Counted from the stretch's first letter, positions 11,212-26,571 are shown. The stretch is DNA of 33,329 nucleotides from Candidatus Zixiibacteriota bacterium (GCA_021159005.1 JAGGSN010000118.1:1-33329); one strand, 5' to 3'. Program-made: numbers and translations. The notes: generated from the sequence alone by a model not told the origin.

Positions 11212-12048
11212 TTATTTTGTAAAAGGCAGAGGCTCGCTTAGCGTTTTTATAACGCGTCCGAATTTTTCTCGTTTCAAATTGTCAAATATAGCTCTCAGAT
11301 AATCCCCAATTTCTTTTTGCCTATCCCCTATCATGTCGAATTTTATTTTTAGCGGATCATCCGGGATGCTGGACCTTCTGTAATAACAGCCTATGCTATA
11401 ATCAAGATTTTTTTTAAAAGCGAAAGTTGTCATAGCAATCTTTGACTTTATCTCAAGAGGCAGCAGCTTTAACAGATAGTAAATTATTTCCTCGGCAGTG
11501 CGGACATGGTTGTTCGATATATAATATATCTCCCCGCCCGAAAGTATTGTGTGAAGATATTCAAACATCGAATCATAATATACCCGCGGTATTTCAGACA
11601 GATCTGACGGCGGTATGGAACTCTTATCGAGAAATATGGTCTGGCAATTGCTTTTCCTTGTCCAGGCAGTCAGGAATGTTCCCTGCGATTCTAGCATGAA
11701 AGGATTGAACTCCAGATACCTGTAATCATCCTCGGATAGTATCAGCGCATGCCTGACAAGAGCGCCCTCTCTGCCAATCTGGTCTTTTCCAGAATTAATG
11801 ACCTTAACTACGGCTATTAGTTTTTTATTATTTGCTGATTTGTTTTTAAGCGGAAACTGGTTTAATGATCTTTTAAATTTCAGATTACGGCAATCGCCCC
11901 AGCTATTGCAAAATTCTACAATCTCCTGCTGGGCTTCGGGTGAAATACCCGATGTTTTACCGACTACCTGCTGACCTCTACGGCTGTACGAAAAGGCTCC
12001 GTAAACCATGTTCTCTATGATTATGTTTTTAGAAACGTTAAAACTCAA
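11212..12048 (-). CDS. GAP1-N-like GTPase-associated protein at the TagF position
   Basis: 278 aa, soluble, no signal or membrane helix. The N-terminal pattern VYGAFSYSRRGQQVVGKTSG, then IVEFCNSWGD, resembles the GAP1-N domain (GTPase-associated protein 1) found beside GTPases in predicted conflict or GTPase-associated systems. Recognition is from memory and is tentative. The gene overlaps the upstream GTPase gene by 4 nt (TTGA), arguing for coupled synthesis and a shared complex. In classical T6SS operons TagF sits here, after tssM, but no TagF signature is visible. The TTG start at 12048 gives 278 aa; an ATG at 12009, just before VYG and with GAGAAC upstream, is a real alternative. Last gene of the operon. 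Confidence 0.55.
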   Translation of the reverse strand: MSFNVSKNIIIENMVYGAFSYSRRGQQVVGKTSGISPEAQQEIVEFCNSWGDCRNLKFKRSLNQFPLKNKSANNKKLIAVVKVINSGKDQIGREGALVRHALILSEDDYRYLEFNPFMLESQGTFLTAWTRKSNCQTIFLDKSSIPPSDLSEIPRVYYDSMFEYLHTILSGGEIYYISNNHVRTAEEIIYYLLKLLPLEIKSKIAMTTFAFKKNLDYSIGCYYRRSSIPDDPLKIKFDMIGDRQKEIGDYLRAIFDNLKREKFGRVIKTLSEPLPFTK

Positions 12049-14096
12049 TCAAGCTTATCCTTGAAGAGAGAATAAAATTCCGACAACTCGAATTTAAACC
12101 GGATATCAACACCCTCGCGGGCAAAAGGTATTTGTTCGCCATCCATACTCAAGATGAAATAACCCGGCTTGAAACTGTAGCTTTCCCTGTTTACATCGCC
12201 CTGATACAAAATAATGGCGACATTTTCATCACCAGCAACAGGCACGCGGATAGTCTTATCGTTATCTAAATCATCGATAAAACCCTGAGGAAATCCGGGA
12301 GCATTATCAAACGAAACAGTATAGCCATGCTCGCCGCCCGAAGCGCCGGTAACAGTAAAAGGAATTTTAATACCGCGCTGAATCCTCGAAACACCGTTTA
12401 TGTATTTTTGTATCTTGTTAGAATATCTTTTCATCTTAGGGTTATCCGGATTATCATCAAGAGTTTTCTTAAACTCGAGAAGCTTGGCCGGAAAACGATC
12501 GGGAGTATCGCCCAGCAGATAATCGAAATCCTGACGAGCCAAATTGTCATAGAATTCTTTTCTCAGCTTCTTGTACTCATTGACTAATCCCTGGGTTTGA
12601 GATACTTCCGCTACAGAAGGCGCTCTTTTAATCCCTTCGCGCTTTTCAGCGATTTTGGCTTTTGTTCTATCTTTATCTCCGGCGTTATTTAAGGAATCTG
12701 CCAAGCTGTCGGCTAAATTAAGGTCGGCTTCTATTTCGCTCAGAGAGGCGTTATACTTGGCTGTATCAGCACCTAAGGTTGATAGTGTCTGAATCTTGCC
12801 GTCTAAGGACGAAAGAATTTGACTTATCCTGCGGTTTAATTCGCTTTTTGCTTGGGATGAACCTCTGTTTAAATAAAGTTTGGATTGCTCCAGAGCTATT
12901 TCACTGAACTCGCTGAAAAAGTTTCTCACTATGAATAGATTGCTGTATCTTTTATAGGCGTTTCCCGTGCTCCTGTTTATAACTGAAGCTGTGCCTGTAT
13001 ACTGGCTGATTTCTCTGAATAGAGACCTGGTTTTCACATGGTTATAGATATGACCAAAGGCGACAATATCAACGATCAATAATATTATCAGGGCTGTCCA
13101 TTTAAGGATACTTTTATAAACAATAGCCCGTCTGTAGGCGGCGATTCTGGATATCGCCCATTGCAAGGGACTGCTTATGCCAAGAGGCCGGAGGTCTTCC
13201 GGCGGCACTTTGACTTTATCGCCATCCTCGTCGGTGATAGTTTCGGGAGCATTGCCGGTGGATGATATAAAGAACACCTGATAATCGAGCGTGCGGGTGA
13301 TTAGCGGTTTGAAAAACGACTCCAAGCGATTGAGCATTTTTTCCACTTCGCCTTTCCAATCGGGTCGGCTGGTGATGTTTCGTTGTTTTAGCACGCCTCT
13401 TAAAAAGCCGGCGAAATTCATAGCCCGTATAAAACCGGCGCCTTTACCAATCAGCATAGATTGCTCGGCTGATTTAAAGCCCGGCATCTCATCCGCTTTG
13501 GATATAACGAGTCCAATCGGAATTTTCAACTTCTTCTCAACGCTCGATAACTGGTCTATTAAATCGGTAAAAGAAGCGATTCTATTTGACCGTTCGCCTT
13601 CGTTTTTAATCGCCTCCGGGTCGATAAAGAAGAATACGCATTCGCAATCTTTAAAGTATTCTACCAATTCCTGTTTGTCATCGCCGCGGCTGTCGATATA
13701 AACCAACTCACCGGAATAGTCTATGGTGTTTACCGGGACGATTTTATTTTTACCAACCCTAATCTCGAAATTTAATTTTTGTTCGCCAGTGGAAAGCGGC
13801 GGGAATCGCCTTGCAGAAATGTTTTTCCCTGTTTCAAGATCAATGCCTTTACCGCGCATCAGATTGAATTTTTCTTCCAAGATTTCTTGAGTTTCACCGA
13901 GCGCCATTATCTCGAATTTGGGGGACTTTTTGCTGAAAGCATATACTATGGTGAAAAATACGGTTTTGCCAACGCCTTTATGACCATACACGCCTATCCG
14001 GAAAATCGATTTGTCGACTTCCTTTCCTTTGCCTGCGGGAAGGTCGACTTTTTTCTTTAATTTGGCGGCACTTTTAAATATTTTTAATATACTCAT
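12045..14096 (-). CDS. Membrane-anchored GTPase, TssM-like, of the T6SS locus
   Basis: 683 aa. The N-terminal P-loop GTPase domain (~31-285) has G1 GHKGVGKT (38-45), G3 DYSGE (126-130), G4 SKAD (199-202) and a possible G5 SSTGN (278-282). A single hydrophobic helix at about 332-350 (LKWTALIILLIVDIVAFGHI) is followed by a helical, coiled-coil-rich stretch (~360-580) and a beta-rich C-terminus (~585-683). The expected topology is GTPase inside and the C-terminal half in the periplasm, as in the NTPase-to-periplasm layout of TssM. It is far shorter than TssM (~1100+ aa) and lacks the two N-terminal helices. It lies after tssK and the TssL-like gene, in the tssM position. A homolog of stand-alone DO-type GTPases is the other reading. 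Confidence 0.6.
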   Translation of the reverse strand: MSILKIFKSAAKLKKKVDLPAGKGKEVDKSIFRIGVYGHKGVGKTVFFTIVYAFSKKSPKFEIMALGETQEILEEKFNLMRGKGIDLETGKNISARRFPPLSTGEQKLNFEIRVGKNKIVPVNTIDYSGELVYIDSRGDDKQELVEYFKDCECVFFFIDPEAIKNEGERSNRIASFTDLIDQLSSVEKKLKIPIGLVISKADEMPGFKSAEQSMLIGKGAGFIRAMNFAGFLRGVLKQRNITSRPDWKGEVEKMLNRLESFFKPLITRTLDYQVFFISSTGNAPETITDEDGDKVKVPPEDLRPLGISSPLQWAISRIAAYRRAIVYKSILKWTALIILLIVDIVAFGHIYNHVKTRSLFREISQYTGTASVINRSTGNAYKRYSNLFIVRNFFSEFSEIALEQSKLYLNRGSSQAKSELNRRISQILSSLDGKIQTLSTLGADTAKYNASLSEIEADLNLADSLADSLNNAGDKDRTKAKIAEKREGIKRAPSVAEVSQTQGLVNEYKKLRKEFYDNLARQDFDYLLGDTPDRFPAKLLEFKKTLDDNPDNPKMKRYSNKIQKYINGVSRIQRGIKIPFTVTGASGGEHGYTVSFDNAPGFPQGFIDDLDNDKTIRVPVAGDENVAIILYQGDVNRESYSFKPGYFILSMDGEQIPFAREGVDIRFKFELSEFYSLFKDKLD

Positions 14097-14115
14097 ATTT
14101 TTTTCTCAAATCAGA

Positions 14116-15084
14116 CTAACGCTGTTTAACTTCTTCAATTCTCTTTTTAAACTCGACAAACTTTTTATCCTGATATTTCCCCATCACCTGAAAAACAGCG
14201 ACTAAGAATACAATCAATGCTAAAAAAGCAAAAACAAAATAAACGAAATTACCGCGGCTTTTAGTAATCACAAACAGGACATACCGGGGAGCGCGAAATA
14301 TTCCCATAACAAAACGAAAGATGGCAAAGAAAAGCTGTTTGAACCGTCCCCAGAAAGGAATCTTGGTTTTCAGATACTTCATTTCGAAAAGGATGTCGCG
14401 ATATATCGGGTTGGAATCAGCCATTTTAGCGAAAACTTTGTACTCCGAAAGCTTATATTCGGGTGATTGCTTGTCTTGCATCAACTGGTTTGAACCTTTA
14501 TTGAGATGCCGTCGCCGCAAGGCTAAAAACAGCTGCGAATGCTGAATTGTTTCCAACTTATCAAGGATTTGATACGCCGGATCTTCGAGAACATTAGGAT
14601 CATTGTTAAGGTTTTGGAGTTCGGCGATTTTTGTTAGAAAATAGAATCTCAATTCTTCACAGCGCTTTAACAAGCTGCGGTCAAGCAGATGAACTGCCAG
14701 TTCAAGTTCCAAATAATCGATATCGGATCTTTTCTTCCGCAGCTTCAGGCAAAATCTGTATGCTTCCTGGTATTGCGCCGCCATCGGTATCAGGATAGGA
14801 AACATAGTCGCCAGAAGATGCGAGGTGATGTACCGTAAATCTGTTCCGCCCTGCGGCGAGTTAAACGCCACCTTATCGAATTCGAAGAGAAGGCTGTCAT
14901 CTACGCCCTTTATTATATCAAGATTATTTTGGTCGCGCACCAATTTGAGATGCGAAAGGACGTTTTCAAAATAGTTAATGAACTCATCAACATCAAACTT
15001 GCGTCCGGTCTCGTATTCCTTAACATAATTGAATAGGATATTTATCGCTTTATGTCGTTCATATTCTGCCAATTGCCGCTCCAT
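14116..15084 (-). CDS. TssL-like C-tail-anchored membrane protein of the T6SS locus
   Basis: 322 aa. A long, mainly helical cytoplasmic part (1-250) is followed by an amphipathic stretch (~245-270, aromatic and basic) and one strong membrane helix (YFVFAFLALIVFLVAVFQVM, ~283-302), leaving a short charged tail (KRIEEVKQR). A helical cytoplasmic body with a C-terminal anchor is the architecture of TssL/DotU, and the gene follows tssK as tssL usually does. No sequence motif of DotU was recognised, so the call rests on topology and position. ATG at 15084 overlaps the tssK stop (TAATG). No ribosome site of its own is obvious, so translation is likely coupled. It probably links the baseplate to the GTPase encoded next. 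Confidence 0.5.
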   Translation of the reverse strand: MERQLAEYERHKAINILFNYVKEYETGRKFDVDEFINYFENVLSHLKLVRDQNNLDIIKGVDDSLLFEFDKVAFNSPQGGTDLRYITSHLLATMFPILIPMAAQYQEAYRFCLKLRKKRSDIDYLELELAVHLLDRSLLKRCEELRFYFLTKIAELQNLNNDPNVLEDPAYQILDKLETIQHSQLFLALRRRHLNKGSNQLMQDKQSPEYKLSEYKVFAKMADSNPIYRDILFEMKYLKTKIPFWGRFKQLFFAIFRFVMGIFRAPRYVLFVITKSRGNFVYFVFAFLALIVFLVAVFQVMGKYQDKKFVEFKKRIEEVKQR

Positions 15085-16529
15085 TAATAAATGTAAACAT
15101 TTACCATTTCCGCTTTAATATCTTTTAAATCCTGCGGGTTGAAATTCCCTCTGACATTTAAGTTTATAGTATTGATTGACGGGTCTGCCATATCATCCAT
15201 CGGTTTCAGCAAAAGATTGCCCGGCGAGCCTTCCGCATCGATATAAACAGGGTCCATCCGTCCGGGAATATTATTATCATTTAAACCAATTTTCACCATA
15301 ATATATCTATAGTCAACGCCTCCCAGCAACTCCCGATTCAGGCTGATTAACACATCCCTTGAAACCATGCTTTCAAAACCATCAATTTTGATGGTTACTC
15401 CATCCCGTTCAATGTCGCTGGCAATTTCCCTGAATGGCTGCAGGTTGTATTCCCTATTGCGATATGACAGGATTTTACCGATTTCTGTAAGCGCTCCGGC
15501 AAGCTTTCTCACCAGACCTATAAACTCCACAAAATCCGTCATAAGCAAAACAAGCTTGGAAGTTAGCTGACCTAAAGCGTGATGGTTGTATCCGGCGCTG
15601 GTAAATTCCTTGGCTCCCTCGAGGAAACGATTTAGGATTTTATCTCCTTCATACTTTTTCTTCAATGTAATTGCCGCATCCCGATATGTTGCAAGCATGG
15701 CCTCTACAGTGCCAAAAATTTGCTGATAAAACGAGATGAGATTATACGGCGGCGCAGGCAAATCAGGGTCGGGATGAACTTTAAGCTTGCCGCCCAGATT
15801 TAGCGATATGTTAGCCAGCATATCCTGGAACTGTTTGTGGTCGATACCGAATTTACCGGGCTTGTCCTGCATCACCGAGATAAATGACTGATAACCTTTA
15901 GCCGCTTCCTGCTGGGCAAGCAGCATCAAGCCGGACAAGCGGCGGCATTGCTCGGCAAGCAACGGATGAGCGCCAATTGTAGTGCATGGTGGAATAAAAT
16001 CAGCATGAAGGTCTGGCCTTTCATCCTCGAAATAGATTTCGCCTATTTTAAGGCAATCGGCGGGATCGATATTCAACAGGTTGCCGGTGATTAAATTATA
16101 TTCAAAACCGCGATACGGTTGTCTTGTTGGTTCATCATCATCAGAGGGCATCCCGACGCCTATTTTTGTATTTTTCGCCCATACATACACCGGGATTCCA
16201 TCGCTGCCGGCTGTCTGTATAGGTGAAGATACCAAATTATTTTCAAACTGCTCGTCTATTTGTATTAACTTGCCGCTTGCTGTCAATCCCATACATCTCG
16301 AAAGAACCACCACCCAATCCTGTCCGTTAAAATCAACCCTTATTTCTAAGGAGGAATCTTCATCGGCAGAAGCTGGAGTCAATCCAAAATGCTGAATGCT
16401 ATGTTTAATAGTCCAGTGGTTTAGCGATTCGAAATATCTTTCCTGGTCTATAAGATGGGATGCGTTAACCAGCATGCCATCTTCCCAATTGACAGAAAGA
16501 AACCTTTTTGATTTATTCAGATCATCCAT
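15084..16529 (-). CDS. tssK: Type VI secretion baseplate protein TssK
   Basis: 481 aa, soluble. The N-terminal region NWEDGMLVNASHLIDQERYF corresponds to the conserved W-x-x-G-hhh-x-x-x-H-hh-x-Q-x-x-Y opening of TssK, which adapts the baseplate wedge (TssFG) to the membrane complex. A helical middle (~210-370) and a C-terminal beta domain (~385-481) fit the three-domain TssK layout; the C-terminal domain normally contacts TssL/TssM. ATG at 16529 with GGTGA a few bases before it. It is separated from tssG by 248 nt of repeat-bearing sequence, the longest gap in the operon. Confidence 0.8.
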   Translation of the reverse strand: MDDLNKSKRFLSVNWEDGMLVNASHLIDQERYFESLNHWTIKHSIQHFGLTPASADEDSSLEIRVDFNGQDWVVVLSRCMGLTASGKLIQIDEQFENNLVSSPIQTAGSDGIPVYVWAKNTKIGVGMPSDDDEPTRQPYRGFEYNLITGNLLNIDPADCLKIGEIYFEDERPDLHADFIPPCTTIGAHPLLAEQCRRLSGLMLLAQQEAAKGYQSFISVMQDKPGKFGIDHKQFQDMLANISLNLGGKLKVHPDPDLPAPPYNLISFYQQIFGTVEAMLATYRDAAITLKKKYEGDKILNRFLEGAKEFTSAGYNHHALGQLTSKLVLLMTDFVEFIGLVRKLAGALTEIGKILSYRNREYNLQPFREIASDIERDGVTIKIDGFESMVSRDVLISLNRELLGGVDYRYIMVKIGLNDNNIPGRMDPVYIDAEGSPGNLLLKPMDDMADPSINTINLNVRGNFNPQDLKDIKAEMVNVYIY

Positions 16530-16604
16530 TTATTCACCATTGTTTTCAGGATTATCAATCCTCCCAATATTTGCGATTATGAAGGATAGTTTAAGTTGAA
16601 ATAT

Positions 16605-16717
16605 TTGTCAATTATTTTCATTATTTATTATTACCAGCAAAAATGTCGGGTTTCTCCCCGCTGGTCGGAACCCGACCTACAATTATGTTGTCAATTTTTT
16701 TCATTATTTATTATTAC
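16605..16717. repeat. Family E repeat copy 2 flanked by 30-bp direct repeats
   Basis: The E core is 16643-16682 (GTCGGGTT ... AACCCGAC, ending CTACAA). It sits between two direct repeats, 16605-16634 and 16688-16717, that agree at 29 of 30 positions (both begin TTGTCAATT and end TTATTATTAC). This looks like insertion of the hairpin with duplication of its target, between tssK and tssG. Confidence 0.85.
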
Positions 16718-16721
16718 TCAG

Positions 16722-16799
16722 TTTGGCGCTGTATCCCGGTAAAAATGTCGGTTTTCTCTCGCCGGTCGGAACACGACCTACAATTTGGCGCTGTATCCC
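16722..16799. repeat. Family E repeat copy 3 flanked by 16-bp direct repeats at the tssG end
   Basis: The E core is 16745-16783. On both sides lies the identical 16-mer TTTGGCGCTGTATCCC (16722-16737 and 16784-16799). The right copy is the last part of the tssG coding sequence. The left copy is a stranded duplicate beyond the present stop codon. Confidence 0.88.
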
Positions 16800-17704
16800 A
16801 GATATGCTTCACCGGGGATGAATAGAATCTCGTCGGAATCAGGCTGGATATGCACTTTATATTCCTCAGCATAACCCGGCAAGCATAACTTGATTATAGT
16901 TATAAGAAGTTGATGTTTTTTACCGCCGGGGATGATTTCTTTTATTTGTTTCATGTCTTTAACTTTAAGAGTGATAGATAATATCGGATTAGGGTTTTTA
17001 TATTGTTTGCCAAGATACATTTTTTTGCCAAGAATACAGTTGGACATCAGCCTGCTCGGCAGATTTTCGGGCAAATCTTTGGTTTGAAGATTATTAAATG
17101 AAACGCTGCATTTAAGTCCTAAAACAGATTCAATATATACTTTTAAGGCGCTTTCAGTGCCCATAAATTGATATAGCTTTGGCAAAACGAAACCGATAAT
17201 TTCCGGATTTATATGGTCGTTTTCTTTTTCCGGCAGCGACAAAAAAGAACTGAAATAGTTTATAAAATTTTCGGATAAGTATAAACCGGCATAAATATCC
17301 CTAATCCATTCCAAACGGCAAAGCATTTTTAAACAAGCGCTGTCAAATATTGAGAAGAGCATCCTTGCGCCTGTTTGACTGCTAAAGTTTTCGGCAAAGA
17401 AATCATCAATACTTGACCTTTGGCGGTTATCGGTAAAAAGATCCGGCATAAGGTCGCAGATACTCATCCTGTTGACCGCCAATATAATATTGCTTTCCGA
17501 TGATACAATTTCGCCGGGATCAGGGTATTGGTTCATGATATCACCCTTGAACCTGCTAAATTCTCCCAACGGATAAACAAAAATATCTTTATCGGGAACG
17601 CCATTTTTTCGCAAATATATATAAGCGTCTTTTAAAGATTTGGACTTAGCTTCCGGACGCGATTTAAAATCAGGCATCGCAAATGGTGTAAAAGAGTCGT
17701 TCAC
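16778..17704 (-). CDS. tssG: Type VI secretion baseplate protein TssG-like
   Basis: 308 aa, soluble. It follows tssF directly, and its middle has TssG-like features: 'ARMLFSIFDSACLKM' with RLEWIRDIYAG and LPKLYQFMGTESALKVYIES (the last resembling the conserved FRGTxxGL region of TssG wedge proteins). Overall similarity is low and the call leans on position and size. The start is GTG at 17704 in a GTGA overlap with tssF. The present TAG stop (16778-16780) lies inside an E repeat. A duplicate of the tail beyond the repeat shows that the frame once ran on as ...GYSAKLSNNK before TAA. Thus four C-terminal residues seem to have been lost. Confidence 0.65.
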   Translation of the reverse strand: MNDSFTPFAMPDFKSRPEAKSKSLKDAYIYLRKNGVPDKDIFVYPLGEFSRFKGDIMNQYPDPGEIVSSESNIILAVNRMSICDLMPDLFTDNRQRSSIDDFFAENFSSQTGARMLFSIFDSACLKMLCRLEWIRDIYAGLYLSENFINYFSSFLSLPEKENDHINPEIIGFVLPKLYQFMGTESALKVYIESVLGLKCSVSFNNLQTKDLPENLPSRLMSNCILGKKMYLGKQYKNPNPILSITLKVKDMKQIKEIIPGGKKHQLLITIIKLCLPGYAEEYKVHIQPDSDEILFIPGEAYLGYSAKL

Positions 17705-19323
17705 CTTAAAAATACCGCTTTAACAACTGTTCCCATCGGACTTCTCGCTTCCAAAAATTTTTGCAATCTTGTCAAAAACAGCTTGCTTTCCTCTGCCGGT
17801 TCAAATTTATGGCCGCCTACATTTACCTCAATGCTTACACATCTGAACACAACACCGTTTCTGATAGTTGAACCAAGTGCGGCTTTGGCCGATTTGACTC
17901 TATTGTCAAACGTGACCGTAAGGGATTCATAATCGGATGACGTTATAGCCCGATTGTGCGACCTTAATACATGAGGAAAAGCGGCTATCATATCATCGAA
18001 AGTTCTGGCATTAACCCCGCCTTTCGTAGCAGTAAGGTTAATCACGGTTTCTATTCCCGGATGGGGATTATACAGCGAATCGATATTTCCGGCGGCGATA
18101 CCATTGGCGGCTTGCCCTGCTGATGTTTTAAACTCAACCGAGAAGCGGTCGGGATCTGTTTTTCCTTCCGGCGGAATAATCAGCATCTGCAATTGGTCTT
18201 GATTGATTCTGGGCAAATATCTGCATCCGGCATCAACCTCGGCAGCGGCTCCATAAACATTAGAGTATTGACGGCCGCGGTTATCTGCGATGCTTATTAT
18301 CTCATATATTTCCTTGGCCGGAGATTGAAGCTGAAACGACATGGCTCCGGGTCCGTGATAGAAGAAGTTTTGTTTCTGAAAATGAGAGTTAATAGCCACT
18401 AAGCAATTCGTCGCCGCCAGTTCAAAGGTATTAATAAGGTCGGAAGTTATTCTCATATCGGAATCTATTTTAATCCAGTACAGCGGTTCAAAATCATCCC
18501 AGAATGTATCCTCCTGACCTGAGAATGATTGCCGCAATTCGAGCGGCGGCGCGCCGACTGCGCCCTTGGGGATATCGAAAAAACAATCGCTATATTCTTC
18601 AATATGCTCATGAGGGAAATAGTTATGACCCCAAAGCGAGATTTCCGGATTTACTTTTTTGCTTTCGATATTCTTCAAGTTTTCCCGGACTGTAAACTCG
18701 GGTTTGCTGAAAATACCGCTTTCAGTTGTAAACCTCCATCGACCCCATCTTAAAATGCCAAGCAGTTCGGGGGATGATAGTATAAACAAATCGGAGGCTG
18801 GGAATTTTATATCATCGCCATTAAGTTTGAGGGCAATGTAAACACAATCTTTTTCATCGACATTAGATTCAACGCTTGCCGTATCGAAATCGACAAGAAG
18901 ATGGTTTTTCCCCGACCATTGCGGGTCGGTCCAGAGCACATGAGCGCCGTCAGCATTTTTTGATAGAGCCGCAACCGCCTCAATCGGCAGCAATGTTTTC
19001 GATTCGGCCGGTGAAAGATAAAACGTAACGCTGGGCTTCACAGTGGTATTTGTCCAACATGCCTCTGTCGACTGGTCAATAGTAGTTTGACTTGCACCGG
19101 TTGTATATTTCAATATAGTTGATGATGGTATAGGATGCAGTAAGCCATCAAAGAATATTCGGCAAGCAAGGTCTCTGATAATTATCTCGGAGATATTGCT
19201 AATGCCGTCATTGATTTCTTTAAGGCGATTAGACATAGCCTTAAACATCATATGGATCACTGGATCCATTTGCTGGGCAGAGGTGGAGAAATCAGGCCAT
19301 ATACGGCGGGCGTCATTAAACAT
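17701..19323 (-). CDS. tssF: Type VI secretion baseplate protein TssF (gp6/BaseplateJ-like)
   Basis: 540 aa from ATG 19323. Early DPVIHMMFKAMSNRLKEIN resembles the TssF N-terminal helix. The C-terminal region FPHVLRSHNRAITSSDYESL (449-468) and the final ARSPMGTVVKAVFL match the gp6/BaseplateJ wedge pattern. TssF forms the baseplate wedge with TssG. The start is uncertain: the in-frame sequence just upstream is open and protein-like (EDLTQEEILER), and a strong GAAGGAGG precedes ATC at 19386 by six bases. The AGGAGG nearest to ATG 19323 is 14 bases away. A rare ATC/ATT start inside tssE, or a long-spaced site for the ATG, are both possible. Confidence 0.75.
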   Translation of the reverse strand: MFNDARRIWPDFSTSAQQMDPVIHMMFKAMSNRLKEINDGISNISEIIIRDLACRIFFDGLLHPIPSSTILKYTTGASQTTIDQSTEACWTNTTVKPSVTFYLSPAESKTLLPIEAVAALSKNADGAHVLWTDPQWSGKNHLLVDFDTASVESNVDEKDCVYIALKLNGDDIKFPASDLFILSSPELLGILRWGRWRFTTESGIFSKPEFTVRENLKNIESKKVNPEISLWGHNYFPHEHIEEYSDCFFDIPKGAVGAPPLELRQSFSGQEDTFWDDFEPLYWIKIDSDMRITSDLINTFELAATNCLVAINSHFQKQNFFYHGPGAMSFQLQSPAKEIYEIISIADNRGRQYSNVYGAAAEVDAGCRYLPRINQDQLQMLIIPPEGKTDPDRFSVEFKTSAGQAANGIAAGNIDSLYNPHPGIETVINLTATKGGVNARTFDDMIAAFPHVLRSHNRAITSSDYESLTVTFDNRVKSAKAALGSTIRNGVVFRCVSIEVNVGGHKFEPAEESKLFLTRLQKFLEARSPMGTVVKAVFLR

Positions 19324-19354
19324 CCGCTCGAGGATTTCCTCCTGGGTTAAATCC

Positions 19355-19774
19355 TCAACCCATTCTCCCTGGAAATGGCGCTCGATAGTAATCCTCCTTC
19401 AGAGTTTTCTCAAGTTTAAATTTCTTGCCGGTAGCGGCAAGCGTCGCATTGATTTCAATTTTTAGGGGCTTCGTGCCTGAGGCTGCCGATTTTACGCCTC
19501 CATGCACTTTAACCGAGATATTATCAAGGCGCGGTTCGCTTTGCTCTAAGGCAGCTCTGATTGTTTTTGATAAATCTTCTTTTATTGCGCCAACTTCTAC
19601 CAATACTTTGCTTGGGTCCATTTGAGCTGTGCCGAAATTTTTATCGCAAACAGATGAACCTTTAGGTGTTGATATAACGATTGAGACAATTTTTACAACT
19701 GAATCTTGAATAGACGCTGTTTTAAATCTGTCGCCATTAAACTGTAAGGGCAACTTTAAATAAATATCTTCCAT
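19355..19774 (-). CDS. tssE: Type VI secretion baseplate protein TssE (gp25-like)
   Basis: 139 aa. gp25/TssE fold, which starts sheath assembly at the baseplate. The diagnostic EPRL motif is present (ALEQSEPRLDNISVKV, ~77-92), preceded by the usual TPKGSSVCDKNFGT strand-turn (~35-48) and followed by beta strands LKIEINATLAAT. No good Shine-Dalgarno is seen before ATG 19774. The last codons carry the strong AGGAGG that may serve tssF. Confidence 0.85.
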   Translation of the reverse strand: MEDIYLKLPLQFNGDRFKTASIQDSVVKIVSIVISTPKGSSVCDKNFGTAQMDPSKVLVEVGAIKEDLSKTIRAALEQSEPRLDNISVKVHGGVKSAASGTKPLKIEINATLAATGKKFKLEKTLKEDYYRAPFPGRMG

Positions 19775-19805
19775 TTCAAGTAATACTGGCCGTTAGTTGT
19801 TATCA

Positions 19806-21653
19806 TTAATTAAGCTGTATGACAGCTCCTTTTACAACAACGTTTCCACTGGCATTTATATCCATGGCAGCTGCTGCTTTCTGGACTAATTTGCCGTTTG
19901 ATTTCATATTTAGCTCTTTACCAGCCTCGATATTAATTTTATCGGCTTTTAGCGTAAGGGCAGTTCCCGCTTCAATAGTAATCGCTTTTTTTGAAGCATC
20001 CAGCGAAATAGTGCATGACGACCCTTTGGTTTCCATGCTGATTTTTTCGCTGCCGCCTTTGCCATCTAAAACCAATTTGGCGCCATCGGTTTTAACCGCA
20101 ACCGAATATTTTTCGGCATCCTTAGAGGCATCCATAATCATCGAGCAGGAATCGCCTTTGGTTTTGATAGCAATCTGTTCGGCATCCTTGTCATCTTTGA
20201 TCATTATTTCATTGCCGGATTTGGTATATATGGCTTTTACCATATTCTCGTTGTGATAGACATCATCCTTGGGAGGCTGTGAACCCTCATAAACCGAACC
20301 CAAAATAAAAGCGTTTTCCAAATGGCGGCCGCGTATCGCAACCATCACGTTGTCGCCTAATTCGGGCATCAGCCAATTACCGTGAGAACCGTTGTCATCC
20401 GAACCCGCCTGCGGCTGACATACCCTTATAAATGGCGACTCAACATTTTCCGCCCCTTGAATATCCCAAGGGAAGCACACTTTAGCCCGGCCGAGTTTTT
20501 TACCTTCGGGGTCATCAATATCGACAACCCAAGCCTGTTCGGTTAAATGAGCCGGGAGTTGGTTTACCGTGCAGTATGGACAGGCAAGGTCGCGAGCGAC
20601 GCAATTGAATTCGCAATCATATTTGCCGTCTTTGTAGTGATGTTTAACACGGGTAAGAAGATATAAACCATCAAATCCTTCTTCGCCGCGTGATTCGGTA
20701 ACTTTTGCCTTTGGAACCCACTTTACTTTCAGACATTTCCCTGAATGCAAGCCTAAGTGTGATGTTTTGCCATTAGATTTAACAAGTTTAGCATACGACT
20801 GCTTAAGCGCTTTTTGCACTTTCTGGTCGATGTCTTGCTGGGAGATGGGATTATGAGGCATTACTATCTTTTCCTGAGATTTAGATAATTTCTCTGATTC
20901 GCCGGCGATTTTTCCCAGCGGCAAAGAAGATTGCGCAGGATTGGGACTGCTTGCCTGAAGCAAGCTTCCCTTAATGTAATCAAAGGCGCTGCTGTCAATA
21001 CTTTTTAATCTTGTAGTATCAAGTTCTACAGTAAATTTTTCGAGGTTATTTGCCTTTAATTCGATACTTTCATCGGGAAGGTCTTCAACCACATTGAAGT
21101 TAAGGCCGTCATAATATGCCCACCAGCCCTCTAAGACCGCAATATAATTAAGCATTTGATATGGAGTATCTCCATAAGCAAGCAAGCCCGGATGAGTTGT
21201 ACCGCCGGAAGCAGTAACATTGGAGTTGGGCAGATTTTCATCGGCAACAAGGCTATTAATAATATCGCCTGATGATAAATCCAGCCAGGTTCGATACATT
21301 TTATTGATATCCATCATTATAGTCGGGCTGTAGCCTTTAATAATAATATTACCAAGGCTATCCACGCTGCTTGAGAAATTAACGGCAGAAATAATTCCGA
21401 TAAATCTAACTTCATCGGCATCATCATCAGACTTATCCGCGGCAGTAAATTTAATGCTTATAGTTTTGGAAAGCCAAGCGCTGGCATTTTCCTCTAATGA
21501 GCTTCCGTAAATTTGTTCGAGTTCATGCCGGCGTCGAAGCTCAAGTGTAAATTCATGATGATTACCGAGCACCTGATGCAGATCAATAGATTCGACAACG
21601 GGGCTCGGTACATCTTTATTATCGATTTTTAATTCAACTTTAACCGATTTCAT
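19806..21653 (-). CDS. vgrG: VgrG/TssI spike protein
   Basis: 615 aa, trimeric spike tip. The gp27-like base domain (~1-340) holds RFIGIISAVNFS and SGDIINSLVADE. The gp5-like OB-fold (~372-460) reads QAWVVDIDDPEGKKLGRAKV, GNWLMPELGDNVMVAI and AFILGSVYEG. A repetitive beta-helix tail (~475-615) repeats 'KTKGDSCSMIMDASK', 'ETKGSSCTISLDASK' and 'ITIEAGTALTLKADKINIEAG'. There is no extra C-terminal effector domain. A four-cysteine cluster (C347, C351, C358, C361) sits between base and OB-fold, which is unusual and might bind metal. ATG at 21653 with GGGA about 10 nt upstream. It lies after a terminator-like hairpin, so it is probably made at lower level than Hcp. Confidence 0.93.
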   Translation of the reverse strand: MKSVKVELKIDNKDVPSPVVESIDLHQVLGNHHEFTLELRRRHELEQIYGSSLEENASAWLSKTISIKFTAADKSDDDADEVRFIGIISAVNFSSSVDSLGNIIIKGYSPTIMMDINKMYRTWLDLSSGDIINSLVADENLPNSNVTASGGTTHPGLLAYGDTPYQMLNYIAVLEGWWAYYDGLNFNVVEDLPDESIELKANNLEKFTVELDTTRLKSIDSSAFDYIKGSLLQASSPNPAQSSLPLGKIAGESEKLSKSQEKIVMPHNPISQQDIDQKVQKALKQSYAKLVKSNGKTSHLGLHSGKCLKVKWVPKAKVTESRGEEGFDGLYLLTRVKHHYKDGKYDCEFNCVARDLACPYCTVNQLPAHLTEQAWVVDIDDPEGKKLGRAKVCFPWDIQGAENVESPFIRVCQPQAGSDDNGSHGNWLMPELGDNVMVAIRGRHLENAFILGSVYEGSQPPKDDVYHNENMVKAIYTKSGNEIMIKDDKDAEQIAIKTKGDSCSMIMDASKDAEKYSVAVKTDGAKLVLDGKGGSEKISMETKGSSCTISLDASKKAITIEAGTALTLKADKINIEAGKELNMKSNGKLVQKAAAAMDINASGNVVVKGAVIQLN

Positions 21654-21670
21654 CAGCTAATCCCATACAA

Positions 21671-21704
21671 ATAAAAATCGGGCGGAAATTATAACCGCCC
21701 GATT
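21671..21704 (-). terminator. Intrinsic terminator/attenuator between hcp and vgrG
   Basis: On the minus strand, AATCGGGCGG (21704-21695) pairs perfectly over 10 bp with CCGCCCGATT (21685-21676) around a 9-nt AT-rich loop, followed by TTTATTTG. It begins 11 nt after the hcp stop and ends 18 nt before the vgrG start. As all genes continue on the same strand, it should be partial, lowering downstream expression. Confidence 0.75.
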
Positions 21705-21714
21705 CGGTTTTCAC

Positions 21715-22128
21715 CTACATGATGTCTTCCCAATTGCCGTCGAGCATGCCATCTCCAACTTCAACTTTCTGAGCGGAGATTTCAAATTCCTCAAAAATCT
21801 GGTTCGATTTACTCTGATCGAAATCAGGGTAGATTTCCTTATAGCTTGTTAGGAAACCATCGGTCCAGATTAATCTTTTCATTTCCTGACCATCTTGAGG
21901 GTTTTTGAAAACAATTTCACCGCCTTTGAAATTATCGGTGGTTGATTTGCATGCCCAGCGGAAAAGGGTGTTGGTGCCATCAGCTTCTCTGACAACTTTT
22001 ATTTTTGCCAGCCTGGCTTGATCTGAGGGTTTACCCCTTACATCTTTGGATGTATAAACTTCGTAGGTAACTGCTTTGACTTTCGGGATTCTTTCGCCCT
22101 CGATAAACAAATCGGGTGCATGAGCCAT
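21715..22128 (-). CDS. tssD: Tube protein Hcp, Bacteroidota TssD-like
   Basis: 137 aa that would form the hexameric-ring inner tube. The pattern VTYEVYTSKDVRGKPSD ... IKVV ... LFRWACKSTTDNFKGGEIVFK ... FEEFEISAQKV is that of the TssD family (PF17642-like) described in Bacteroidota T6SS subtype iii, rather than of proteobacterial Hcp. Its ribosome site is the strongest in the operon (AAGGAGGT, five bases from ATG 22128). Together with the hairpin after it, this fits the very high copy need of a tube protein. No domain fusion. Confidence 0.85.
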   Translation of the reverse strand: MAHAPDLFIEGERIPKVKAVTYEVYTSKDVRGKPSDQARLAKIKVVREADGTNTLFRWACKSTTDNFKGGEIVFKNPQDGQEMKRLIWTDGFLTSYKEIYPDFDQSKSNQIFEEFEISAQKVEVGDGMLDGNWEDIM

Positions 22129-22150
22129 AATAGACCTCCTTAAATATGGT

Positions 22151-23587
22151 TTAACTCATTTCTGTTTCTGTGAAATCGCCATCTTCCGACTGCTTGGCAG
22201 TAAGATAAACATCGAACTGCCTGACAGAAGTAAATGGGGTAATATTCAGCTTAACATCGATAATATGTTTAGCTCTTTGCTCGGGCGTTGATGTTACCGC
22301 GAGTTTGAAATCGCTGATTAATTTCCCTTTGCCAGAATTGGCGCGCACAAAGTTGAAAATATCGGTTTTTACTCTATCCAAAAGAGAATTATCTATCAGT
22401 TTAAATGTTTGCTTGTTCAGATAATGGCAGACATTTTTGGATATATAATCGGCAGTTCGTTTGGTAGCATAAACATCATACGATTCGCCTTTAAATAATG
22501 AGCAATCGCCTAAGAATCTGACTTTGGCATCCCATAGCACAGATGGAATAACGCCTTTGTTTAAAAATTCTTTGGCGCCAACCGCTCGGTCAACTTCAAA
22601 CCGCGATGCTTTCACAGAATCAGCGGAACCGTACTGGTAGCCGGCGCTGGGCTGCTGCATGCCAACCCTTTCATCCTGAGCATAAACCAAACCGGCAAGA
22701 ACGGATGACGGCGGCAGCCATAGGTCTTCCTCCTCATAGCGGTTTTTAGGTCTGCCCAGCACCCAGTTGGCAACAACCGACATATGAGCTTTTTCGGGAG
22801 TAGAGCCAGCCAAACCCTCAAGACCCGGACCGTTCATTTCATCCTGAGCTTCCTCAAAGGTTTCGTAATTTGGCAAATCCGTGAACACATGAACCTTGTT
22901 TTCCTCGCCGAGTTTGGCAAGCTTATCCATGTTTGGTATATCCTCAAGGAAACCGGGGACAACCATAATCGAATAGCAATCTGTAAGACTGAAAGCTCTG
23001 AACGGTTTTTGAACAAAGCTGGCAAGTTCGTTGAATGAATCGGAGTCGGGGTCGGTTAAATCCTCTTTGGAAACATTGGAGAAGAATACATTAACAGGGT
23101 CGCCGGATGGTGAACTGCAGGAGTAAAATTGCTGAATTCCTCTGTATGTAGTTTCAAGCTGATTGATTTCTTCATAGATAGTTGTCATATTGCTAATAAT
23201 ATTTTCTTCAAGATTCTGAGCCTCTAATATTGCCGTATTGCGAAGGTCTCCGACATCTTCCGAATTCGACAGCATTTTATGCCACATTTTGAGACGGCGA
23301 GTCATAATTTTTCTTGATGATTCAAATTGAGGTCGGGTTAAAAATTTATGCCGCTGGTCTTTCTTTTTGGGATTTAGCATAGCCAAACCAACCATCGCTT
23401 CGCCGGAAGAGGTTTTTACCTGCGGGAACAGTCCTTCTACCTTTTTTAGCGGCAATTTTACTTTTTCAAATTCGGAAACCAATTCAGTAATCCGAGCCGC
23501 GGGATCGCCAGCTGCCCCTGCCGCTTGTTGAGTTTCAGCCGCTTTATTTGATTCTTCGGCAGGCTGCATTTTTTCTTCTTCAGCCAT
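22151..23587 (-). CDS. tssC: Contractile sheath large subunit TssC (VipB)
   Basis: 478 aa. Conserved sheath region INQLETTYRGIQQFYSCSSP (~127-146) corresponds to the 'LEa-WRGL' motif, followed by VNVFFSNVSKEDL (~152-164). Later FRAFSLTDCYSIMVVPGF, AHMSVVANWVLGRP and VHVFTDLPNYETFEE fit the TssC core. The C-terminal IIDVKLNITPFTSVRQFDVYL (~443-463) is the handshake strand region of the sheath. The N-terminus is Glu/Ala/Gln rich. ATG with GGAGG seven bases upstream. Forms the sheath with TssB and is recycled by ClpV. The central cysteines are not typical, but no defect is seen. Confidence 0.93.
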   Translation of the reverse strand: MAEEEKMQPAEESNKAAETQQAAGAAGDPAARITELVSEFEKVKLPLKKVEGLFPQVKTSSGEAMVGLAMLNPKKKDQRHKFLTRPQFESSRKIMTRRLKMWHKMLSNSEDVGDLRNTAILEAQNLEENIISNMTTIYEEINQLETTYRGIQQFYSCSSPSGDPVNVFFSNVSKEDLTDPDSDSFNELASFVQKPFRAFSLTDCYSIMVVPGFLEDIPNMDKLAKLGEENKVHVFTDLPNYETFEEAQDEMNGPGLEGLAGSTPEKAHMSVVANWVLGRPKNRYEEEDLWLPPSSVLAGLVYAQDERVGMQQPSAGYQYGSADSVKASRFEVDRAVGAKEFLNKGVIPSVLWDAKVRFLGDCSLFKGESYDVYATKRTADYISKNVCHYLNKQTFKLIDNSLLDRVKTDIFNFVRANSGKGKLISDFKLAVTSTPEQRAKHIIDVKLNITPFTSVRQFDVYLTAKQSEDGDFTETEMS

Positions 23588-23626
23588 TAAATTTCCTCCA
23601 CAATATATTTAATATAAATTTCCAGT

Positions 23627-24082
23627 TTATGATTCAATTGAACCGCCAAGAAGTTCAAGGTTTTTTTCAATTAACTCTAAAAACAGTTTCTTTTTATTGG
23701 GATCGGCAAGCAGTTTTTTTAGCGCCATATTTTTATTTAGCTGTTTGGCGAAGTCGTCAAGAATATCCTTATCCATATTAGCCTCAGTGAGCGTTTCGGA
23801 TTGAGCCATGATACTCTTAGGACTAAAATCATCCATTTTCGTAAACTTCAGATTAATAGTTTCCTCGCTGCCGTCTCTTGTGTTGATACTAACTTCCTGT
23901 TCCGGCTTGAAAGTTTCAAAGACATTTTTAAGAGTTTTGCATTTTTTCGGTTCAATTTCGCTGTCTTCGTTGTTTAATTTGCCAACATACAAAGTTTTGT
24001 TGGTTGGCAATCCATCCATAGCTATGGCACCGGAATCCTGTTTGATTTCCTCTGCGCCAACATGCGGTTTATTTTGCGCCAT
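23627..24082 (-). CDS. tssB: Contractile sheath small subunit TssB (VipA)
   Basis: 151 aa. After a variable N-terminus, VSINTRDGSEETINLKFTKM runs into DDFSPKSIMAQSETL (~68-98), the TssB pattern 'L-F-x-x-x-x-D-F-x-P'. A helical C-terminus with LNKNMALKKLLADPNKKKLF follows. It pairs with TssC; two separate sheath genes plus ClpV define a T6SS rather than an extracellular injection particle. ATG at 24082 with GGAGG upstream. Confidence 0.9.
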   Translation of the reverse strand: MAQNKPHVGAEEIKQDSGAIAMDGLPTNKTLYVGKLNNEDSEIEPKKCKTLKNVFETFKPEQEVSINTRDGSEETINLKFTKMDDFSPKSIMAQSETLTEANMDKDILDDFAKQLNKNMALKKLLADPNKKKLFLELIEKNLELLGGSIES

Positions 24083-24129
24083 GTTTCCTCCAATATTTAT
24101 ATTATGCTAGCCGGTGGATTAAATTAATC

Positions 24130-26571
24130 CTAAAGGGGCATAACATCAATTGAAAATTTATTATCCTTTACTCCGATTTCGAAGCAATCGCCCGATTTCA
24201 CATCGCCTGTAATCATCTTTACTGATAACTTTGAAAGAATTTCCCTTTCTATTAATCTTTGAAGCGGTCTGGCCCCCATCTCAAAATCATAGCCCTCCTC
24301 GATAAGCTTATCTTTAGCTTCATCGGTAAGCTTCATTTCGATTTTTTTATCAGACAACAGCTTTTTAATCTCTTTTAATTGTATATCGACAATATAGGCT
24401 AATGTTTCTTTGCTTAGGGTATGAAATACTATAATTTCCTGAATTCTATTAATGAGTTCGGGTTTAAACTTTTTAAGCATCATCTCCCGGAGTTCTTCGG
24501 TTGTAAATGTTTCGCCTTTTCGGTCTTTTTCGACAATCAGAGGTCCGCCATAGTTTGAGGTCATAATTACAATAGTATTGGAAAAATCGACCGTTCTGTT
24601 TTTGCCGTCAGTAAGCCTGCCATCATCGAGAAGCTGAAGCAGGATGTTGAAAATATCGAGATGCGCCTTTTCGATTTCATCGAATAATACTACGGAGTAC
24701 GGCTGACGCATAACCGATTCGGTCAATATGCCGCCCTCCTCATAGCCGACATAACCGGGCGAGGCGCCGATGAGTTTCGAGACATTTATTTTTTCCATAT
24801 ACTCCGACATATCCATCCGGACGATGTTTTTCTCATCATCGAAGAGGAATTCGGCAATCGCTTTTGCCAACTCTGTTTTACCGGTTCCCGTAGGTCCCAA
24901 AAATATAAAAGCGCCAATTGGTCGGTTGGGTTTTTTGAGACCGGCGCGCGCCTTGCGAACCGCATCCGATACCGCCTTGATAGCATCCATCTGCCCTACT
25001 ACTCTTTCGGACAGATGTTTTTCCATCTGGAGCACTTTTTGGGCTTCATCCTCGCGCATCTTGGCTAAGGGTATACCGGTCCAGCGGGATATAGTATGGG
25101 AGACTTCATCGGAACCAACTTCTTTTTTTACAGTTGAAAGCAGCTGCAATAGCTTTTTCGATGGTTCGATTAAGTCAACATTCGCTTTCGGGTTTTCGGG
25201 CAAGGGTGTAATTTGCGAAGCTATTTCGGATTTATATTTGCAGTTTTCAAAGATTGAACTCAGGTCGTCATAATATTTTTTGAAGCCATCGCTGGCAACA
25301 TCCTCAAGTCCCTTGATAATTTTTTCAAGACGCGACTGCATATCATCCGCGAGAAGACGAAACTGCGAAGCGGCTTCATCAAGCACATCGATTGCCACCT
25401 GCGGAAGCGTTTGACCGCCGAGATACCGCTTTGACATCCGGACAGATTCGATAATGGCAGTATCAGAAATCGTTAATTTGTGGTGGTCCTCATAAAGGTT
25501 TTTTATGCCATTGATGATTTTATTAGTTTCCTCAACATTTGGAGGCTCGAGGCTGACTTTTTGGAATAGCGATGATAAGCCTTTATCTAATGAAAAATGC
25601 TTGGTGAAATCTTCCTCATTGGTGGCGGCAATAACTGCTACCTCACCCCGGCTAAGATAAGCTTTCAGCGGTCCGACCATTTCGGATGGTCCGCCAGTGG
25701 ATGATGGCTTTAGAATTTCATGGACATCATCTATTATCAAGATAGTATTTTTTGATGTATTTTTGATGCCGCTTAATACTGTTCTGAATCTTTCTTCGAG
25801 TTCGCCTTTATATTTAATGCTGGCAGTAATTTCATCGATATCGAGTTGGATGACTTTTTTATCAGCCATCGCCGGAATAACGGTGCCATCGGAAATACGC
25901 TGAACCAAACCGCGCAATAGCGCTGATTTTCCGGTGCCATCAGGACCAACAAGTATTGGGTTTGAACGATGCTTTCGGATGAGAATCTGCATTAATTCAA
26001 TAATTTTATCATCGCCCCCAATTGTGGCATCAAGCCTACCGCCATTAGCCAGCGCTGTTAAGTCGCGGCAATAGCTGTGTGTTGCAGCAACAGAGACTAT
26101 ATCCCCGCCGCCAACAGCAGTAGATTCGGTAACATCCGATATTTCACCCAGTGCCCGATATAGTTCGCCCTTACTTATATCCATTCTTTCGATTAATTCA
26201 GAGGAAATGCTTGAACTCGAATCGACCAACGATAGAAGAAGATGTTCACAGCCGATTTTTGGCGCTTTAAAATTATCTCTTTCGAGGTCGGCGTTGGCTA
26301 CGATATCCTCAATGAGCGGTGAAAGCGGCAGTTTCAATCGGGCTGTTTCCGATTTTGGAAACCCTTCCATATCCATCTCAACAATGGATTGGAGCAAAAC
26401 GCTGTTTTTATCGAGATATGATAATAGCGATTCGACTACGCCTGATTTTTTCCTGAGAACAGCTAACAGGAAATGTTCCGGCATAACTTCAGTATGTCGT
26501 TTGGAAAGCGCAATATCCTGAGCCGTAATCAATGCTTCTTTGGCATCTCTGCTGAGTTCTGAAATATTCAT
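24130..26571 (-). CDS. clpV: Sheath-disassembly AAA+ unfoldase ClpV (TssH), D1 ring degenerate
   Basis: 813 aa Clp/Hsp100 ATPase that takes apart the contracted sheath. Clp N-domain 1-145 (two repeats), D1 ~170-400, short middle region ~400-490, D2 ~495-770 with C-terminal small domain. D2 is complete: Walker A GPTGTGKT (559-566), pore loop SPGYVGYEEG, Walker B VVLFDE (627-632), arginine finger in PELINRIQ, sensor 2 GARPLQR. D1 keeps Walker A GPDGTGKS (209-216) and pore loop KYKGELEERF, but Walker B is LIIDD (D282 instead of Glu). The usual LERRF arginine-finger motif reads GLSSLF (331-336). First gene of the operon; ATG 26571 with GGA nine bases before. Confidence 0.93.
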   Translation of the reverse strand: MNISELSRDAKEALITAQDIALSKRHTEVMPEHFLLAVLRKKSGVVESLLSYLDKNSVLLQSIVEMDMEGFPKSETARLKLPLSPLIEDIVANADLERDNFKAPKIGCEHLLLSLVDSSSSISSELIERMDISKGELYRALGEISDVTESTAVGGGDIVSVAATHSYCRDLTALANGGRLDATIGGDDKIIELMQILIRKHRSNPILVGPDGTGKSALLRGLVQRISDGTVIPAMADKKVIQLDIDEITASIKYKGELEERFRTVLSGIKNTSKNTILIIDDVHEILKPSSTGGPSEMVGPLKAYLSRGEVAVIAATNEEDFTKHFSLDKGLSSLFQKVSLEPPNVEETNKIINGIKNLYEDHHKLTISDTAIIESVRMSKRYLGGQTLPQVAIDVLDEAASQFRLLADDMQSRLEKIIKGLEDVASDGFKKYYDDLSSIFENCKYKSEIASQITPLPENPKANVDLIEPSKKLLQLLSTVKKEVGSDEVSHTISRWTGIPLAKMREDEAQKVLQMEKHLSERVVGQMDAIKAVSDAVRKARAGLKKPNRPIGAFIFLGPTGTGKTELAKAIAEFLFDDEKNIVRMDMSEYMEKINVSKLIGASPGYVGYEEGGILTESVMRQPYSVVLFDEIEKAHLDIFNILLQLLDDGRLTDGKNRTVDFSNTIVIMTSNYGGPLIVEKDRKGETFTTEELREMMLKKFKPELINRIQEIIVFHTLSKETLAYIVDIQLKEIKKLLSDKKIEMKLTDEAKDKLIEEGYDFEMGARPLQRLIEREILSKLSVKMITGDVKSGDCFEIGVKDNKFSIDVMPL

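Follow-up and report, generated by a model that had tools for sequence, protein, structure and literature searches.

A type VI secretion locus of Zixibacteria with a T6SSiii-type tail and a candidate third kind of membrane complex

Two membrane complexes of type VI secretion systems (T6SS) have been described in the literature, TssJLM and TssNQOPR. In T6SSi, TssK attaches to the baseplate through its N-terminal shoulder and to TssL and TssM through its C-terminal head (PMC6300606). In T6SSiii, which has been stated to be confined to Bacteroidota, TssK is bound by TssN (Bongiovanni 2024, PMC10781749). DO-GTPases, together with GAP1 proteins, are predicted switches of conflict systems (Kaur 2020, PMC7159879); membrane forms with extracytoplasmic beta domains have been noted among them, in a text that makes no link to T6SS (PMC7159879). 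Here we compare with these systems a T6SS operon from a Zixibacteria metagenome-assembled genome (MAG), contained in a window of 33,329 nucleotides, by which we mean the whole stretch of DNA analysed. An earlier note on this DNA proposed that the locus uses a third kind of membrane complex, and our analysis supports that proposal with a probability of roughly 0.7: the system would combine a tail and baseplate of the T6SSiii lineage with a third kind of envelope membrane complex. No earlier description of this complex was found in the open-licence literature.

Operon organization and affiliation of the tail

The whole gene series lies on the minus strand, running from 26571 to 11212, and is tightly packed. 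Its order is clpV-tssB-tssC-hcp-vgrG-tssE-tssF-tssG-tssK, followed by genes for an anchor protein (here TssLx), a membrane GTPase (GTPM) and a GAP1-N2-like protein:

24130..26571, minus strand: ClpV (TssH), sheath-recycling AAA+ ATPase, 813 aa; Pfam AAA_2, ClpB_D2-small and Clp_N
23627..24082, minus strand: TssB, sheath, 151 aa; Pfam T6SS_VipA, 1.8e-8
22151..23587, minus strand: TssC, sheath, 478 aa, of the Bacteroidota (T6SSiii) family; Pfam PF17541, 5e-60
21715..22128, minus strand: Hcp/TssD, tube, 137 aa; Pfam PF17642 (TssD), 2.3e-19
19806..21653, minus strand: VgrG/TssI, spike, 615 aa; Pfam Phage_base_V, 4e-11, and NCBIfam VgrG families
19355..19774, minus strand: TssE, gp25-like baseplate protein, 139 aa; Pfam GPW_gp25, 3.7e-9, and TIGR03357
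17701..19323, minus strand: TssF, baseplate wedge, 540 aa; TIGR02243, 2.5e-12; family HMM against T6SSiii TssF, 4e-26
16778..17704, minus strand: TssG, baseplate wedge, 308 aa; Pfam T6SS_TssG, 1.3e-6
15084..16529, minus strand: TssK, adaptor between baseplate and membrane complex, 481 aa; TIGR03353, 9e-13, and hhalign
14116..15084, minus strand: TssLx, helical body and C-terminal membrane helix, 322 aa; AlphaFold2 and TM prediction
12045..14096, minus strand: GTPM, DO-GTPase2 family, 683 aa; Pfam PF19993, 28.5 bits (cut-off 27)
11212..12048, minus strand: GAP1-N2-like protein, putative GTPM partner or regulator, 278 aa; PF20013, 5e-4, below cut-off

TssB, TssC, Hcp, VgrG, TssE, TssF, TssG, TssK and ClpV, the tail and baseplate core of a T6SS, are all encoded in this one locus, and their Pfam and NCBIfam scores, weak to good, are mutually consistent. 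PAAR, TssA and recognisable effector genes were not seen in the operon (11212-26571). At its downstream end the genes for TssK and TssLx overlap by 1 bp, TssLx and GTPM are separated by 19 bp, and GTPM overlaps the GAP1-N2-like gene by 4 bp, all in the same orientation. The earlier note described three genes of the interval 11212-16529 as we find them; it left the GAP1-N2-like gene (11212-12048) unnamed and missed a candidate partner, a co-occurring and often unlinked small secreted protein of ~175 aa that we call X180.

Two peculiarities of the core genes may be recorded. The N-terminus of TssG (16778-17704) is similar to a PASTA domain (Pfam score of 20.8 bits against a cut-off of 23.2), which is odd in a cytoplasmic baseplate protein and is possibly a chance resemblance. 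ClpV is a single ORF in the window; in many relatives it consists of two adjacent ORFs, of ~485 aa (N-terminal domain and D1) and ~366 aa (D2), for example in G013, G015, G035, G045 and G056 and in the loci L093:16037-18588 and L129:642-3196. In several genera the two ORFs share a few bases, and the arrangement looks like a genuine gene split, not a frameshift.

The tail resembles that of T6SSiii in family assignment and in sequence. TssC and TssD belong to the families PF17541 and PF17642, the latter bearing out the TssD-type Hcp, like that of Bacteroidota subtype iii, reported in the earlier note, and the sequences are nearer to those of Bacteroidota than to those of Proteobacteria. Family HMMs built for this analysis gave, for most parts of the tail and baseplate, E-values of 1e-18 to 1e-122 with T6SSiii proteins versus 1e-4 to 1e-13 with a canonical T6SSi of Zixibacteria; the ClpV family HMM reached 6e-122 with the T6SSiii ClpV of B. 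finegoldii, and that of TssB 2e-26 with T6SSiii TssB versus 4e-6 with T6SSi TssB. When plasmid records were searched with the window TssC, all 10 matches were from Bacteroidota and none from proteobacterial T6SS plasmids. In the TssC tree, the window type and T6SSiii group together, far from T6SSi (support 100/100); T6SSiii falls either beside or inside the window type, with the long T6SSi branch weakening the rooting. As judged from these sequences, tail and baseplate clearly belong with the T6SSiii lineage of Bacteroidota, and their presence in Zixibacteria extends this tail type beyond Bacteroidota.

The adaptor TssK departs from both described types at its C-terminus. It can be aligned with T6SSi TssK over residues 1-203 only (hhalign, 2e-18) and with T6SSiii TssK over residues ~1-350, and its last ~130 residues match neither. 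This unmatched part would be in keeping with a connector that has become adapted to another membrane complex.

The anchor protein and the membrane GTPase

Downstream of tssK, gene coordinates, AlphaFold2 models and TM prediction agree with what the earlier note had read: a helical, C-terminally anchored protein and then a 683-aa P-loop GTPase with one membrane helix and a C-terminal domain. In the TssLx model (pLDDT 87.7) the body is entirely helical and leads into a single long helix at the C-terminus, within which lies the only TM segment (residues 280-298); the residues flanking this segment suggest that the body is cytoplasmic. TssLx thus has the topology of TssL/DotU, in which a cytoplasmic helical domain at the N-terminus is anchored by a TM segment at the C-terminus, and the likeness is one of topology only. 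No relation to TssL was found by Pfam, where the DotU domain PF09850 is missing, by hhalign against 15 TssLs or by Foldseek, in which the TssLx model does not show the DotU fold, the best E-value is 0.3 and TssL is not among the matches. Hence the TssL-like anchor of the earlier note stands as to topology and gene position, and membership in the TssL family was rejected. Since TssLx has no detectable known relative, its proposed role rests on where its gene lies and how the protein is built.

GTPM (AlphaFold2 pLDDT 84.5) comprises a G domain (~32-300), a single TM segment (330-348), periplasmic helices (370-573) and, at the C-terminus, a beta-rich domain (576-669). The residues next to the TM segment suggest a cytoplasmic G domain. 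Its P-loop, DYxG and TKxD motifs are conserved or invariant columns of the family, so GTPM likely binds GTP. DO-GTPase2 (PF19993) is the best-matching family in 36/36 members, with the window protein above cut-off. IcmF-related_N (PF14331) is the second commonest Pfam match, distant, in 14/36 members and with a best E-value of 0.0019. The earlier note took GTPM for a compact TssM, and descent from TssM at first looked promising, because the hhalign match of the G domain to a 17-sequence TssM profile (probability 86.8%) spans 131 columns, with both the final strand and the TKxDxLxGF motif among them. However, MglA, used as a generic GTPase control, scored 78.9%, barely lower, and DO-GTPase2, represented by one Gemmataceae sequence, scored far higher (98.8%); homology to TssM was therefore downgraded, and the claim is not upheld. 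GTPM also differs from TssM/IcmF in overall build: the latter has IcmF-related_N, IcmF-related and IcmF_C domains, ~1100 aa and three TM segments, and GTPM has one TM segment and the weak PF14331 match. The canonical TssM of Zixibacteria (L117) does carry the TssM/IcmF domains. The periplasmic half of GTPM gave no significant match to TssM (P 0.13). The top 50 Foldseek matches of the GTPM model are all GTPases, which says nothing about that half, and sequence searches of PDB with TssLx or GTPM, as single sequences or alignments, returned no meaningful match.

Components of the known membrane complexes were not found. TssM (PF06744), TssL (PF09850) and TssJ (PF12790), the last being the SciN-family outer-membrane lipoprotein, have no match anywhere in the window genome. 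This agrees with the earlier note, which saw no TssJ or TssM in the locus and asked whether tssJ, tssL or tssM elsewhere in the genome might complete it. As for TssN, TssO, TssP, TssQ and TssR, also missing according to that note, TssR (PF17643) was not found above cut-off in ten genomes, its one sub-threshold match in the window genome (E 0.005) being dismissed as low-complexity sequence, and for TssN/O/P/Q the statement holds among the operon proteins. None of the five families matched members of the TssLx, GTPM or X180 families in Pfam, and hhalign of the operon membrane proteins against TssNQOPR of B. finegoldii gave no similarity.

Distribution and provenance of the GTPase module

An alignment-based search of genome contigs recovered GTPM homologues at 47 loci in public genomes. 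Most are from Zixibacteria, others from Krumholzibacteriota and Latescibacterota MAGs, and the most distant from Gemmataceae; the nearest named relatives are from Candidatus Zixiibacteriota bacteria (53% identity). One MAG labelled Ignavibacterium (L048) has a typical Zixibacteria-type locus, for which a mislabelled or contaminated MAG is more likely than gene transfer. A survey of related genomes for the same gene order, suggested by the earlier note, showed TssLx directly before GTPM in 36/47 loci, nearly always behind tssK; in one of the 36 (L079) GTPM is split in two. The order tssK-TssLx-GTPM was seen across Zixibacteria and also in MAGs of Krumholzibacteriota and Latescibacterota. The adjacency of TssLx and GTPM is well beyond chance.

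Presence of GTPM follows that of the window-type tail. Among 132 Zixibacteria genomes, 65 have GTPM and 65 have TssC of the window type; 63 have both, 65 neither, and two each have only one (Fisher 2e-32, a statistic that ignores shared ancestry). The four discordant genomes (G122, G128, G008 and G028) are 64-88% complete, so that once the survey is restricted to the 78 genomes with completeness of 90% or more and contamination of 5% or less, each set comprises 40 genomes and the two coincide. TssLx was found in 16/58 relatives, all of them TssC-positive. Canonical TssM occurs in 12 of the 132 genomes, in loci of the order tssK-tssL-tssM(~1130 aa)-tagF-tssA, and 11 of the 12 lack GTPM. The twelfth, G126, rules out strict mutual exclusion: it carries a canonical T6SSi and a window-type system as two separate, complete operons (L128, L129), each with its own membrane genes, which argues that TssLx and GTPM serve one as TssL and TssM serve the other.

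Linkage to the operon is not universal. TssLx is the last gene of the T6SS operon in G005 and G007, both single-contig genomes, and in G058; in these, GTPM is retained elsewhere on the chromosome, beside X180. X180 adjoins or is near GTPM in 35 loci; in the window genome it lies on another contig (G000:C57:28644-29153, L106), not adjacent to the T6SS. At E < 1e-30 it was found in 14/58 relatives, all T6SS-positive. Four weaker paralogues are the exception, and paralogues are present in some T6SS-negative genomes. X180 was considered as TssJ or as a member of another known family and has no Pfam match; its N-terminus is signal-like, with no lipobox cysteine visible by eye. Its position beside the unlinked GTPM and the restriction of its strong matches to T6SS-positive relatives make X180 a candidate third component of the membrane complex.

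The surroundings of X180 deserve mention. On the contig of the window genome, X180 ends an operon of secreted proteins that include a TPR protein, a 1092-aa repeat protein and a PorV-like protein. In 13-18 loci it is followed by a convergent five-gene module (L048:12834-18788) for one lipoprotein, one beta-barrel-like protein, a pair of CsgG-like proteins and a PEGA-domain Ser/Thr kinase. This module may serve the window-type T6SS as a regulator or as an accessory at the outer membrane.

The GAP1-N2-like protein occupies the gene position of TagF, to which it has no similarity. The window protein is diverged (PF20013, 20.5 bits, cut-off 24), and GAP1-N2 is the top Pfam match in all six members scanned (the window and five relatives). 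The gene lies directly downstream of GTPM in two lineages only, that of the window and a second one, with scores that stay under the Pfam cut-off; in most loci no GAP1 is found beside GTPM. A DO-GTPase2/GAP1-N2 pair without T6SS genes occurs in Gemmataceae, where it was found by both family HMMs (GTPM, 1.3e-19; GAP1-N2-like, 1.9e-14); a search of plasmid records with the Gemmataceae DO-GTPase2 gave no match. A plasmid of Haliovirga abyssi (Fusobacteriota; L144:15944-19370) encodes a 707-aa DO-GTPase-like protein with one TM segment and the layout of GTPM, followed by a 433-aa membrane protein whose C-terminal part looks similar; no T6SS gene is annotated in the vicinity. The Fusobacteriota homologue scores 98% with the GTPM family versus 0.3% with TssM. 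Given the DO-GTPase2 assignment in 36/36 members and these relatives outside T6SS, co-option into the T6SS is the simplest account, and the GTPase module, with GAP1 where present, was most likely recruited from stand-alone DO-GTPase2/GAP1-N2 systems. This bears on the suggestion of the earlier note that the locus is an evolutionary bridge between the proteobacterial T6SS and that of Bacteroidota: tail and baseplate do go with T6SSiii, but the GTPase points to a separate module that was recruited, not to an intermediate.

Alternative readings and comparison with known systems

In the arrangement that we favour, TssLx and the cytoplasmic G domain of GTPM would likely form a complex serving as the inner-membrane platform for the lineage-specific C-terminal part of TssK. 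GTPM would span the membrane once, its helical stalk and C-terminal beta domain probably lying in the periplasm in place of TssM, so that the complex would provide the channel. More speculatively, X180 might complete the periplasmic or outer side, and GTP binding and hydrolysis, aided by GAP1 where present, might gate assembly or firing of the T6SS.

The same gene order could also be read as descent, TssLx and GTPM being true TssLM homologues that diverged and were shortened, having lost the large central region along with the two TM helices at the N-terminus. The order tssK-anchor-GTPase-GAP1 parallels the canonical tssK-tssL-tssM-tagF of Zixibacteria, GTPM and TssM both end in a beta domain, and the IcmF-related_N matches and the 131-column alignment with TssM are in line with such an origin. 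We regard it as unlikely, however, in view of the high score of the MglA control, the stronger and consistent assignment to DO-GTPase2, the Fusobacteriota homologue that sides with GTPM and not with TssM, the lack of a significant TssM match in the periplasmic half and the failure of every method to match TssLx to TssL.

A different role for the GTPase would leave the true membrane complex to TssLx alone or to proteins encoded elsewhere: GTPM, with GAP1 and X180, might be a regulator or a sensory or defence module tied to the T6SS. As DO-GTPases and GAP1 are predicted switches, GTPM could be regulatory; it is encoded away from the T6SS in three genomes, and Ser/Thr kinase and CsgG-like genes adjoin 13-15 loci. 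Against this speak its near-perfect co-occurrence with TssC across the 132 genomes and its place next to the tssK region in nearly all loci. Moreover, the TM segment and long periplasmic part fit an envelope-spanning component, and the operon has no other conserved membrane protein, so that we consider a purely regulatory role quite unlikely. It is extremely improbable that the system is not anchored in the envelope at all, as a cytoplasmic or lysis-released contractile system with the membrane proteins as incidental neighbours. Certain contractile systems do lack TssJLM, and neither a TssA nor a PAAR gene was seen in the operon, but ClpV, TssK, TssG, TssF and TssD are all of T6SS type and the co-occurrence of the membrane genes is tight also where they are unlinked. 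The reading of a third membrane complex accordingly remains the one that we prefer. Its wider form, to which we give even odds, is that this complex was assembled independently in phyla of the FCB group around a DO-GTPase2 module from stand-alone GTPase/GAP1 systems and that, by extension, DO-GTPase2/GAP1-N2 proteins elsewhere may be envelope scaffolds or anchors and not abortive-infection switches.

A third anchor on a T6SSiii-type tail would imply a modular build in which tail and anchor can be exchanged, the C-terminal part of TssK being the exchangeable connector. It would also allow a natural comparison of the minimal requirements of an anchor. Relatives of the GTPase have so far only been predicted in bacterial conflict systems; here one is tied to the T6SS of a little-known phylum, and the window-type T6SS provides a concrete setting for the function of DO-GTPase2, a family known from prediction only.

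Each of the three closest systems shares a different part with the window type. As in TssJLM of T6SSi, and in IcmF/DotU of T4BSS, tssK is followed by a C-tail-anchored helical protein and then by a TM GTPase, with the same presumed job, and GTPM, like TssM, has a TM helix followed by a periplasmic helical and beta part. Unlike TssM (~1100-1200 aa), however, GTPM has 683 aa, one TM segment, no IcmF-related or IcmF_C domain and a G domain of the DO-GTPase2 family; TssLx is not DotU, and there is no TssJ lipoprotein. With T6SSiii of Bacteroidota the window type shares homologous TssB, TssC, TssD, TssE, TssF, TssG, TssK (first ~350 aa) and ClpV. It differs in having its own TssLx and GTPM instead of TssN, O, P, Q and R among the operon membrane proteins, in the extra C-terminal ~130 aa of TssK and in its occurrence in phyla outside Bacteroidota. 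With DO-GTPase2/GAP1-N2 systems it shares the family of the G domain, the membrane helix and extracytoplasmic beta domain that follow it and, in the window lineage and one other, a GAP1-N2-like gene directly downstream. By contrast with those systems, GTPM sits in a T6SS operon, and this operon encodes neither a second GTPase as its pair nor an FNIII protein nor variable effectors.
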